DNA from: Clostridium thailandense | GTDB lineage: Bacteria; Bacillota; Clostridia; Clostridiales; Clostridiaceae | Reading direction: 5' to 3' | Length of the DNA stretch: 39,219 bases | NCBI RefSeq assembly: GCF_019207025.1 | Contig: NZ_JAEEGC010000027.1 | Location: 1 to 39,219 of the forward strand | Shown: positions 2,127 through 4,696 of the stretch, piece after piece | Position numbering within the stretch: position 1 is the first letter of the stretch | How the letters are laid out: every line of letters begins with the position of its first letter | The notes under the pieces: generated by a model | Told to the model about the DNA's origin: nothing | What the model saw: the letters and a program-made list of their open reading frames with translations, nothing else | Databases searched by the model: none | Program-made: the position numbers and the translations under genes

Positions 2127-3132
2127 ATGAAAAAGATAGCATTATTTGTAGCAGCTGCAGCTGTATCATTAAGTGTAGGAGGAAAGGCACTAGCAGATAC
2201 CAATACTATATCATTTACAGATAAAGCAGGAATAACTCCTGACAACGTTTTATTGTATCCTATTGATAAAGCTATAGATAATATAAGGATTAACTTAACA
2301 TTTGCAGACGATAAAAAAGCACAAGTTCTAATAGATGTGGCAAAAGAAAGACTTGGAGAAAGTGAAGTAATGGCTGATAAAGGCAAGACAGATCTTTCAA
2401 TTCAAGCTATGAATTCTTACAATGATAAAATGGCAGAATCTCAGAGTAACATAGAAAATGCAATTGACAATACTACTACTAACACTACTACTGACAGCAC
2501 TGCAAAGTCAGATAATTTAAATGCAGTGGAAACTACAATAGAGAATGCTCAAACAAATTCTATTGAGGTTTTAAAGAATATAGAAAAAAAGCTTTCTGGA
2601 AATGCAGACAAGAAAGAAAGCTGCAATAGAAGCAGTTATCAAAACGAGACAAGAAGCAGCTCAATATGTAACCGCGGTTAAAGATGCTAAAAAAGCTCTT
2701 GAAAAGGCTCAAAAATTTGGCGACACGCAGGCTATACAAACTTCCGAAAATACTCTAAAACAAGCTCAAGATGCTTTAAATACTGAAAATCAAAAACTAA
2801 GTCAGTCAATTGAGGCTAAGAAAGAGGCCATAAAAGGTGGAGTTGGTCAGCTTAAGAAACAATCTAGACAAGCTGGAAATAACCAAACTAATAGTACTGC
2901 AAACTCTACAGGTACTACTACCCAAACAGATAACAGCACAGCACCTGTAACTACAACACCAACATCTACAAATACAAGCACTGCAACTAATACTTCTAGT
3001 ACTGCAACTGACAATACTACTGTTACAAATAACACTAATACTGATACCATTGTATATAAAAATAAAGGACAGGAAATGAAGGCTCAGAAAGCTAATTCCG
3101 CATCACATGGAAGTAACTCTAAAGACCAGTAA
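2127..3132 (+). pseudogene. Secreted DUF5667-type protein, split by a +1 frameshift
   Basis: The first frame (2127-2681) begins with a signal peptide (MKKIALFVAAAAVSLSVGG, cleavage near ALA-DT) and a helical region starting TPDNVLLYPIDKAIDNIRI that resembles DUF5667 proteins. Around 2611-2620 the reading passes to the +1 frame, which continues in the same helical, Lys/Gln/Ala-rich style (KKAAIEAVIKTRQEAAQYV) and ends in a long Thr/Asn/Ser-rich tail to 3132. Removing one A from AAGAAAGAAAG restores one ~335-residue protein. The start has a strong site (GAGGGGG, about 6-8 bases upstream). It may be a true pseudogene, a phase-variable A-rich tract or a sequencing error. The function of this family in clostridia is unknown to me; a cell-surface role is inferred from the signal peptide and tail. 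Confidence 0.75.
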
Positions 3133-3218: not shown

Positions 3219-3246
3219 TTGAATTTTATGTTAACTATGGTATAAT
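3219..3246 (+). promoter_or_regulatory. Strong sigma-A promoter of the CD3324-type leader
   Basis: TTGAAT (3219-3224), a 16-base spacer, and a perfect TATAAT (3241-3246) preceded by TGG (extended -10). The predicted start near 3253 is only about 19 bases upstream of the leader ORF ATG, so the leader ORF would be the first thing translated. Confidence 0.65.
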
Positions 3247-3271
3247 GACATAATGTATTGGGGGTGTTTTT

Positions 3272-3367
3272 ATGAAGGTCTATGATACATTCAGCTATAA
3301 ATCAGCTTGCTCCTCGCAAAGACTACAACAAAGTCAGCTATGCTTTGTTTGGAGCCTAAGCTGTTAA
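3272..3367 (+). CDS. Candidate 31-aa leader peptide upstream of the CD3324-type gene
   Basis: ATG at 3272 preceded by GGGGGTG (3260-3266) opens a 31-codon frame (MKVYDTFSYK... ending VWSLSC) with TAA at 3365-3367. The frame runs through the 5' arms of two hairpins (GCTATG 3337-3342 and GAGCCTAA 3352-3359) whose 3' arms lie just before a T-run. This is the arrangement of a regulatory leader peptide. I do not recognise the peptide sequence. Confidence 0.6.
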   Translation: MKVYDTFSYKSACSSQRLQQSQLCFVWSLSC

Positions 3368-3418
3368 ATTAGCTGAAATGCGCACATGTTTTAGGCTCTG
3401 CGACACATAGCCTTTTTT
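3337..3418 (+). promoter_or_regulatory. Attenuator-like hairpins with T-run, upstream of 3464
   Basis: GAGCCTAA (3352-3359) can pair with TTAGGCTC (3391-3398). GCTATG (3337-3342) can pair with CATAGC (3406-3411), and GGCT (3394-3397) with AGCC (3409-3412); the last two would form directly before TTTTTT (3413-3418), giving an intrinsic terminator. The alternatives share segments and overlap the leader ORF, so a stalled ribosome could switch the structure. The downstream gene starts 46 bases after the T-run. Confidence 0.6.
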
Positions 3419-3463
3419 GTATTCTTTGTTTTGATACTTTCATAAAAGTGGAGGAGTAAGGAA

Positions 3464-3769
3464 ATGAACTATGTAAAGGCACAAGATGTGTTACCAGAGG
3501 AAATTCTTAAAATAATACAAGAATATGTAGACGGAAAATATCTTTATGTACCCAGAAAAAATGAAAATCATAAAGCCTGGGGAGAAAAGAGTGGTATAAA
3601 GAACAGTCTTAAGGCGAGAAATAATGAGATTTATAAAAAGTACATTAATGGAGCTACTATTAATATACTAACTCAAGAGTATTACCTGTCAGACAAGAGT
3701 ATAAGAAGAATAATAGGTCAACAAAGACTCATGTGCTCACAATCATTACAGAATTATTCATTAGATTGA
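3464..3769 (+). CDS. CD3324-family small protein, probable HTH
   Basis: 101 residues. The N-terminal half (YVKAQDVLPEEILKIIQEYV... YVPRK... WGEKSG) and the helix-turn-helix-like C-terminal half (NNEIYKKYINGATINILTQEYYLSDKSIRRII) match my recollection of the uncharacterised 'CD3324 family' found widely in Firmicutes, in which a Mor-like helix-turn-helix is suspected. The start follows GGAGGAG about 7 bases upstream. The gene is preceded by an attenuator-type leader and followed by the FusB-like gene, whose promoter overlaps its stop codon. A regulatory role in antibiotic response is an inference from context only. Confidence 0.7.
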   Translation: MNYVKAQDVLPEEILKIIQEYVDGKYLYVPRKNENHKAWGEKSGIKNSLKARNNEIYKKYINGATINILTQEYYLSDKSIRRIIGQQRLMCSQSLQNYSLD

Positions 3770-3820
3770 ATGCTTATTTTAAACCATGTTATACTTTCAT
3801 TGAGGAAATCCAATGAAAGT
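3766..3820 (+). promoter_or_regulatory. Promoter with overlapping inverted repeat, upstream of FusB-like gene
   Basis: TTGAAT (3766-3771), 18-base spacer and TATACT (3790-3795) with TGT before it (extended -10). A perfect 10-bp inverted repeat, ACTTTCATTG (3793-3802) and CAATGAAAGT (3811-3820), covers the end of the -10 and the likely start site, so it may be an operator rather than an RNA hairpin. Confidence 0.5.
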
Positions 3821-3839
3821 TATCATATATCTAATTTAA
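3813..3839 (+). CDS. Candidate 8-aa leader peptide of the FusB-like gene
   Basis: ATG at 3813 with GAGG at 3802-3805 (7-base spacing) encodes MKVIIYLI then TAA. It would be nearly leaderless on a transcript starting near 3802. A second frame from ATG 3859 (20 codons, MIVSICYVLN...) lacks a clear ribosome site but ends inside the terminator stem at 3919-3921. Either could couple translation to the terminator. Confidence 0.35.
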   Translation: MKVIIYLI

Positions 3840-3894
3840 AACAAGATTCAAAAGTAAAATGATTGTGAGTATATGTTACGTTTTAAATCAGGAT

Positions 3895-3941
3895 GATTAT
3901 TGTTACTTTAAGTTGGAGTAACAATAATCTTCTTTTTGTTT
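3895..3941 (+). terminator. Perfect-stem terminator in the FusB-like leader
   Basis: GATTATTGTTACT (3895-3907) and AGTAACAATAATC (3917-3929) form a 13-bp perfect stem with a 9-base loop, followed by TTCTTTTTGTTT. It lies downstream of the promoter at 3766-3795 and about 95 bases before the FusB-like start. It is therefore either a leader attenuator or, for readthrough from 3464-3769, an ordinary terminator. Confidence 0.8.
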
Positions 3942-4036
3942 GTGATCTTAATATAAAATGAAACTGGAAGTAACGTCATATTTATTTACATGAATACTGA
4001 AAAATAGTACATGATAGAAAAGAGGTGCTTGATTTT

Positions 4037-4696
4037 ATGAAGGCTTTTATGAAAAAGCATGAGTATAATTATATAAGAAAGTGTTTAGATGATTTAAACA
4101 ATGCTTTTAAAGGTTGTGTAGATATTAATATTATTGAAGCTACTAAAGCATATATACAAGAGAAAATATTATATATTTTTACTAATTTATCTGAAGAAGA
4201 AAAAGAACTACTTAATATTAATAAAATAACTGATTCATCTCACCTTGATAGATATTTAGCTGAATTGAATCAATATGTATATGGTATGCCAAACATTACA
4301 AATGCACAAATTAGTAGATTGTTTAAAAAGGAAAAGAAGCTTAAATTACCAAACCTAAATGCACAGGATTCAAAAAATGTATATCTAGGCTGGATTGATA
4401 AATCCACTAGAAAATTATTTGTAACTTACAATATGAATGATAAGCTTATAGGTATGGCATGTAGAATTACAAATCATGTTTCTAATAATTCCCATAGATG
4501 CGTGCTTTGCAATCGTATAGGTGGTGAAAATGAAGTAGCCTTTGTTTCACCTATCTGTAAAACATCTAATACTGCGGAAGGTGCTTATAGGTCAATAGGC
4601 TTTGATATGTGTTTAGATAGCGAGAAGTGTAATGAGCGAATTGCATCTATCGAAATGCTTGAAAAACTTTTAAAGGATGTTAATAATATAAAATGA
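4037..4696 (+). CDS. FusB/FusC-family EF-G-binding protein
   Basis: 219 residues, close to the ~213 usual for FusB. The N-terminal half is helical; the C-terminal half carries a four-cysteine zinc-finger pattern (HRCVLCNRIGG and FDMCLDSEKCNERI) typical of the FusB/FBP C-terminal domain. Family knowledge: FusB-type proteins bind elongation factor G on the ribosome and release it from fusidic acid stalling. ATG 4037 is preferred with GAGGTG about 11 bases upstream; a GTG at 4025 is inside that site. It follows a promoter, short leader ORFs and a terminator, suggesting drug-inducible attenuation. Whether it gives resistance or has a housekeeping role (as many chromosomal homologues may) is not known. 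Confidence 0.8.
   Translation: MKAFMKKHEYNYIRKCLDDLNNAFKGCVDINIIEATKAYIQEKILYIFTNLSEEEKELLNINKITDSSHLDRYLAELNQYVYGMPNITNAQISRLFKKEKKLKLPNLNAQDSKNVYLGWIDKSTRKLFVTYNMNDKLIGMACRITNHVSNNSHRCVLCNRIGGENEVAFVSPICKTSNTAEGAYRSIGFDMCLDSEKCNERIASIEMLEKLLKDVNNIK

Follow-up and report, generated by a model that had tools for sequence, protein, structure and literature searches.

Why should a small gene of the CD3324 family in Clostridium thailandense stand behind a short open reading frame (ORF) and a set of competing hairpins, with a FusB-type gene next to it? An earlier note, made from the sequence alone, had proposed ribosome-mediated attenuation and had assigned this family to a translation-stress or antibiotic response. 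We addressed the question in the window (the whole stretch of DNA analysed, 39,219 nucleotides) and in relatives of the locus, and consider it probable that leader, gene and neighbours form one circuit, in which a ribosome pausing on the leader ORF would allow CD3324 to be translated and CD3324, likely a Mor-type activator, would switch on fusB and other genes through a promoter box. The leader and its gene comprise the following elements.

3219..3246, + strand: leader promoter, TTGAAT, a 16-nt spacer and TATAAT, with TG before TATAAT (10 of 12 bases match)
3260..3266, + strand: ribosome-binding site of the leader ORF, GGGGGTG, read from the sequence
3272 to 3367, + strand: leader ORF from ATG to TAA, 31 codons plus stop, peptide MKVYDTFSYKSACSSQRLQQSQLCFVWSLSC
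3309..3326, + strand: segment 1, made up of GCTCC, which complements the CD3324 ribosome site, and GCAAAGACTAC, which complements segment 3
3344..3355, + strand: segment 2, TTTGTTTGGAGC, with segment 1 as its pairing partner
3391..3398, + strand: TTAGGCTC, whose partner GAGCCTAA lies at the end of segment 2; antiterminator-like in the window's class
3393..3418, + strand: terminator-like hairpin and T run (3413–3418), the latter weakly conserved
3419..3428, + strand: segment 3, GTATTCTTTG, with segment 1 as its pairing partner
3450..3461, + strand: CD3324 ribosome-binding site, covered by segment 1 in the predicted fold
3464..3769, + strand: CD3324 family protein of 101 aa (ATG 3464), Mor/C-type helix-turn-helix (HTH) (NF040785, PF08765)

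The extended −10 promoter and the 31-codon ORF with its ribosome site are as the earlier note described them, and 28 of 61 leaders have an extended −10 element upstream of them, where shuffles would give 5.1. The leader RNA (3253–3463) has a predicted fold of −62.8 kcal/mol (z −3.1), a value reached by none of 200 shuffles, and Rfam at gathering cut-offs gave no match within the window. A DNA search with 3219–3463 returned matches in 15 of 57 genomes (own included), with long leader matches of 84–91% nucleotide identity in 10 of the 56 other genomes. In nine of these ten the leader immediately precedes CD3324, and fusB follows. The remaining one, L042, has decayed: truncation and loss of frame affect both CD3324 and fusB, so its reading as a leader driving fusB directly was rejected.

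A contig scan for CD3324 gave at least 575 confirmed relatives and 79 loci with named organisms, mostly Clostridium but also Romboutsia, Paraclostridium, Anaerocolumna and others. Together with the loci of close relatives these provided 107 upstream regions, of which 92 remained after removal of near-duplicates. A strict regular expression found both segments in 52 of the 92 and missed true variants, and was replaced by consensus scoring (segment 1 GCTCCnnGCAAAGACTnn, segment 2 TTTGCnnGGAGC, segment 3 nnAGTCTTTGC, sought 40–58 nt before the start codon), by which all three segments are present in 68 of 92 regions, with GCTCCnnGCAAAGACT as the general form of segment 1 across the 68 leaders. 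The 24 regions lacking the full consensus include the class E leaders described below and, by eye, seemingly compensated variants (L004, L089 and L129); the region upstream of L024 holds nothing resembling the leader. An RNA model (R1) built from class A6 gave 39 matches in 18 of 57 genomes, 35 of them directly before a CD3324 match, the other four being remnants by eye (G001:C9, G001:C14:75959, G012 and G019:C2); leaders without a full CD3324 in L226–L228 also look like remnants. By these comparisons, the leader element belongs to CD3324. Since a Bacillaceae plasmid carries a diverged leader (by eye), then CD3324, then FusB, the module is not confined to Clostridia.

The ORF was counted in 67 of the 68 leaders, one being too short. 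An ORF led by a ribosome site and open into segment 1 is present in 63 of 67, compared with 24% of dinucleotide shuffles, and under a stricter count (ATG plus a site of at least 5) in 42 of 67, compared with 3% of shuffles. The distance from start codon to segment 1 is 33–37 nt in 46 of the 63, while the peptides differ widely. Within the window's class, length changes before segment 1 come in multiples of three (by eye), and L044/L054 (one locus), L052, L062, L063 and L102 lose the frame within segment 1 or beyond it; since the frame is kept before segment 1 and broken inside or after it, the ORF seems to be needed only up to that point. The locus therefore has a translatable leader ORF that overlaps the switch, as Erm-type attenuators do. 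Alignment of CD3324 upstream regions, which the earlier note had proposed in search of conserved leader ORFs and terminators, thus bore out the ORF (63 of 67) and found terminators poorly kept (21 of 68). A second leader class (class E: L019, L020, L032, L107, L109, L120 and L122) has ORFs of 8–9 aa that end at segment 1 (MRRYIIYA, MRKYVIYA, MRNKLVICA and MSVEIIYA); the ribosome-mask model described below was not supported for class E leaders.

Segment 1 pairs either with the nearby segment 2 or with segment 3 and the CD3324 ribosome site, giving two mutually exclusive pairings of which one covers the next ribosome site, again as in Erm-type attenuators. Among 57 distinct leaders, 88.5% of cells keep the 1:2 pairing, compared with 84.8% in shuffles (highest of 1000, 86.5%) and no more than 52.2% in slid registers; for the 1:3 pairing the figures are 94.1%, 89.1% (highest of 1000, 90.9%) and no more than 46.7%. 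The shuffles overstate significance, however, because the leaders are related to one another. Double-change pairs number 7 for 1:3, against 3.3 in shuffles, and 5 for 1:2, against 4.3. In class A6 (24 leaders), the 1:3 pairing with the ribosome site and a small local hairpin (3:4) reaches 97.3% with 6 double-change pairs, and none of 500 shuffles did as well on any measure; for the 1:2 helix of A6 the figure is 94.8%, with 8 double-change cells (0 of 500 shuffles), and its number of double-change pairs is not above shuffles (343 of 500). RNAalifold predicted 1:2 plus 3:4 for A6 and 1:3 plus ribosome site for A7, the window's class. The competing hairpins overlapping the leader ORF that the earlier note reported are thus confirmed as two rival pairings conserved across leaders. 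Conservation in close relatives, which that note had named as the point on which its idea could fail, was found for the ORF as far as segment 1 and for the pairings. A duplex-energy scan of 92 leaders (best 1:3 duplex at least as good as 59 of 60 shuffles in 42 leaders, best 1:2 duplex in 7) was set aside because its duplexes spanned the whole length and did not isolate the segments.

How translation might act on these pairings was modelled by sliding a 28-nt ribosome mask along the 68 leaders and computing the openness of the CD3324 ribosome site. This openness averages 0.12 with no ribosome on the leader, 0.30–0.34 with the front edge 3–6 nt into segment 1 and about 0.17 beyond, the maximum falling at edge +3 or +6 in 54 of 68 leaders. 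In 14 window-class leaders openness rises from 0.03 to 0.24 and is still about 0.18–0.20 up to +30. Masking the whole of segment 1 was rejected as the open state, having no mean effect on the ribosome site (54 leaders). The opening at +3 to +6 arises because segment 1 is split, GCTCC covering the ribosome site and GCAAAGACT holding segment 3, which, if free, helps to close the CD3324 site through the 3:4 hairpin (folding prediction). The opening of the CD3324 site is thus predicted to depend on the ribosome. Without one, the site would be closed by segment 1 (1:3), or by the local 3:4 hairpin when 1:2 forms; a ribosome with its edge 3–6 nt into segment 1 would cover GCTCC and leave GCAAAGACT free for segment 3, and the site would open. 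At the typical start distance, arithmetic places this position at about codon 8–10 in the P site. Further along, the predicted opening falls, sharply over all leaders and only mildly in the window's class, where a pause before or on segment 1 would also favour the antiterminator-like pairing over the terminator-like hairpin.

These predictions bear on three other accounts of the leader. The window does contain the hairpin and six T's reported in the earlier note, and a classical transcription attenuator alone, with a terminator and T run opposed to an antiterminator and with incidental ribosome-site pairings, would draw support from it, from nine long-class leaders with strong terminators and from the 21 of 68 leaders (9.7% of shuffles) that have a terminator-like hairpin between segments 1 and 3. 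It would also suit 10 window-class leaders in which the terminator-like stem gives way (to about 0) to segment-2 pairing while the ribosome edge is at −3 to +27 and returns to about 0.3 once the edge has passed +33. However, 47 of the 68 leaders have no such hairpin there, the T run is poorly conserved (at least five consecutive T in 7 of 18 close leaders, alignment A7, by eye), the stem of the window's leader has a value of 0.00 in each of the four states listed (predicted ensembles), the long-class terminators are insensitive to the ribosome, and segment 3 with its covariation lies downstream of the terminator. We regard this account as unlikely; among possible control points it is the CD3324 ribosome site, not the terminator, that looks the most widely conserved. 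A ligand-binding riboswitch with no need of a translated ORF would fit the very high nucleotide conservation and the loss of the peptide frame after segment 1, but the excess of ribosome-site-led ORFs over shuffles, their near-constant start distance and the lack of an Rfam match within the window make it extremely improbable. Little more can be said for a leader that senses amino acid or tRNA shortage in place of antibiotics: ribosome-mediated attenuation serves amino acids too, according to part of PMC13236596, yet leader peptides differ widely between classes with no common codon run by eye, and the neighbours are of resistance rather than biosynthetic type, so that we give it a very low probability.

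Comparison thus supports ribosome-mediated attenuation, as the earlier note proposed, through an ORF that runs into the switch and two rival conserved pairings. Among the long leaders, L018, L022, L073, L076, L077, L081 and L084 have a textbook intrinsic terminator just before segment 3. Long-class terminators are predicted to be stable at every ribosome position, and an antiterminator for this class was not supported (terminator 0.82–0.85 under every ribosome mask).

The protein behind the leader matches the CD3324 family model NF040785 at 116.2 bits (cut-off 65) and the Mor transcription activator family PF08765 at 27.0 bits (cut-off 24.9), which bears out the small probable HTH protein of the earlier note. 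Foldseek placed Mu C and Mor as its top two matches; a PDB sequence search with the CD3324 profile gave nothing below E 0.16, Mor appearing at 0.68. Only the CD3324 and Mor families match the window's protein, which is not of WhiB type. Of 194 genomes from the window's family, 115 have CD3324, as do 5 of 72,556 plasmids; tblastn found no match in 50,697 phage records, and none was confirmed in viral contigs. The window's genome has four CD3324 genes, beside fusB, an alpha/beta hydrolase, an ABC-F gene and a methyltransferase-like gene (the last three by eye). In the open-licence literature we found nothing on the CD3324 family or on a WhiB7-type system with ABC-F genes and attenuation in Firmicutes, and one general review on a clostridial activator under attenuation.

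Which genes, then, might CD3324 serve? Downstream of its start codon the window holds four further features.

3747..3769, + strand: predicted activator box TACAGAATTATTCATTAGATTGA
3790..3795, + strand: TATACT, −10 element of a predicted promoter for fusB, 24 nt past the box's 19-nt core
3895..3929, + strand: terminator-like hairpin between the box promoter and fusB
4025..4696, + strand: FusB-type EF-G-binding protein, likely start ATG 4037, predicted target (PF07299 91.0 bits, PF16571 33.9 bits)

The FusB-type gene named in the earlier note is borne out by its EF-G-binding N domain and FBP zinc finger, both above cut-off, while the NCBIfam fus resistance models match below theirs. The neighbour survey covered 76 of the 79 loci, those with a callable CD3324 frame (three had no ORF in a simple gene call), and 62 of the 76 have a same-strand next gene. 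By Pfam these 62 comprise 15 GNAT (Acetyltransf_1), 10 EF-G-binding (FusB), 9 with the ABC-F extension domain, 5 ABC exporters, 5 with a metallo-beta-lactamase fold and 2 hexapeptide transferases, among others, and the NCBIfam ribosomal-protection ABC-F model matches 9. Among 55 second genes, 8 are GNAT, and FusB and the ABC-F extension are absent from the 25 commonest families; 7 of 73 preceding genes are FusB, 5 of these divergent. A further gene of this kind, an Lsa-family ABC-F ribosomal protection gene (105–1622, − strand; 761.6 bits, cut-off 750), lies near the CD3324–fusB module, and no site at this gene was among those listed by a box search of the own genome.

The spaces after CD3324 often contain a terminator followed by TACAGAAnnATTTATnAnnTnGA, with a −10 element 23–24 nt past a 19-nt core, and this box pattern (TACAGAA-n2-ATTTAT...) often stands after CD3324 and before fusB, ABC-F or vat genes. 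A box score of at least 13 of 16 was found in 32 of 62 regions (one of 63 was left out as too short), against 1.9% of shuffles, and 29 of these 32 regions have the −10 element at 23–24 nt. A box also occurs in five of 27 divergent regions, which are exactly those of the five divergent FusB genes. Since the consensus was read from the scored regions themselves, a genome search served as the independent test of the box. With at most one mismatch it gave 73 sites in 55 of 194 family genomes, against 1 site for the reversed pattern; with three mismatches the own genome has 5 sites against 2 reversed, and many others are near parity. All 55 box genomes have CD3324 and none of the 79 genomes lacking CD3324 has a box (comparison by eye). 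When the 73 sites were sorted by eye, at least 52 had a CD3324 gene no more than 1 kb away, and 14 showed no CD3324 motif over the 700 nt upstream; of the 7 left unplaced, one (L166) looks like a chance match.

Behind the 14 remote sites stand 7 alpha/beta hydrolases, of which one is annotated and six resemble it by eye, together with 2 CatA, 2 Vat, 1 CatB, 1 ABC-F and 1 beta-lactamase-fold gene, and the 13 genomes that contain them all have CD3324, an outcome with a chance of about 0.1% (0.593 to the 13th). Best values among seven scanned box-driven acetyltransferase and ABC-F proteins were 1.3e-60 (chloram_CatA), 1.5e-73 (Vat), 4.1e-117 (ribo_prot_ABC_F) and, for CatB, 8e-91 (gene beside CD3324) and 1.1e-85 (remote CatB); of these, ABC-F passes its curated cut-off, while CatA, Vat and CatB score below theirs. 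The box-driven proteins have close sequence relatives among solved chloramphenicol and streptogramin acetyltransferases. The proposed role of CD3324 in a translation-stress or antibiotic response is thus supported by comparison, through the FusB and ABC-F genes among its next genes and through the box promoter before catA, catB and vat elsewhere. One alpha/beta hydrolase is found repeatedly behind boxes, with no CD3324 just upstream in L187, L199, L200, L204, L205, L206 and L210, and beside CD3324 in the own genome (C51), and is a candidate new resistance enzyme.

In a change from the earlier note, CD3324 itself is best read, from these comparisons, as the activator of its neighbours. It might instead be a small attenuated gene leading an operon, with the box used by another regulator, as the frequent same-strand next gene and, by eye, the overlap of the box with a weak TTGA −35 could suggest. 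By eye, though, gaps to the next gene mostly exceed 100 nt and often hold a terminator and then a separate box promoter; the box stands at all five divergent FusB genes; every one of the 13 genomes with remote boxes has CD3324, which 41% of the 194 genomes lack; and PF08765 is above cut-off. We consider a passive role for CD3324 improbable. With CD3324 as activator, a ribosome slowed on the leader ORF, by an antibiotic as we infer, would open the CD3324 site; CD3324 would bind the box at about −55 to −33 and recruit RNA polymerase; and the products of its targets (fusB and other resistance genes) would protect the ribosome or destroy the drug.

In Erm/ErmCL systems a short leader ORF, on which the ribosome pauses near codon 8–10, precedes a gene whose ribosome site is covered by rival hairpins. 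The CD3324 leader resembles them in its short ORF, its predicted pause at about codon 8–10 and its covered ribosome site, and differs in a segment 1 of two halves, one covering the ribosome site and one holding segment 3, and in controlling a probable regulator rather than a resistance gene. Opening of a ribosome site by a precisely placed ribosome on a split segment would, as predicted, be a new attenuation geometry. In staphylococci a leader peptide is described before fusB itself (aj1-LP-fusB; part of PMC12561750), whereas the present leader stands before CD3324, and fusB is served by a box promoter of its own. With Mu Mor and C, which are its top two Foldseek matches, CD3324 shares a Pfam family above cut-off; Mor binds at −43.5, replacing the −35 element (part of PMC4390567), and the predicted CD3324 box is centred near −44. 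Unlike Mor and C, CD3324 was not found in phage records, and its box has no clear inverted repeat by eye.

The closest parallel in logic is with WhiB7/WblC of actinobacteria. WhiB7 is induced by ribosome stalling in an upstream ORF (uORF) and drives a programme that includes intrinsic resistance factors (part of PMC13236596); the CD3324 architecture and predicted regulon fit a transcription factor under uORF attenuation, although CD3324 is Mor-like rather than WhiB, has another RNA and another box, and occurs in Clostridia and some Bacilli. Judged by sequence comparison, this is probably a WhiB7-like alarm built from unrelated parts, a clostridial counterpart of mycobacterial WhiB7. That CD3324 is the WhiB7 of Clostridia in the full sense, a ribosome-gated Mor-type master activator with a box programme of FusB, ABC-F, Vat, Cat, hydrolases and acetyltransferases, is a reading that we favour slightly; if true, the box would mark undiscovered resistance enzymes. 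The proposed circuit would assign a function to a family found in more than half of the genomes of the window's family, would show how a single circuit could let clostridia sense many ribosome drugs, and would make leader plus box a sequence rule for predicting intrinsic resistance genes, the recurrent alpha/beta hydrolase included.

Several minor features of the locus were also observed. Two box subtypes can be told apart by eye: ...TTTATTAGATTGA, chiefly in front of fusB, and ...TTTATGAACTnGA, in front of other genes; they perhaps reflect CD3324 paralogues of different specificity. The 5′ region of fusB past the box promoter (3813–3929) holds an 8-codon ORF (MKVIIYLI), preceded by GAGGA, which resembles a ribosome site, and then a strong terminator-like hairpin, possibly a second attenuator before fusB; by eye, this mini-ORF is not kept in several relatives. 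At 2127–3132, the overlapping frames 2127–2681 (DUF5667) and 2602–3132 look like one low-complexity protein split between frames.
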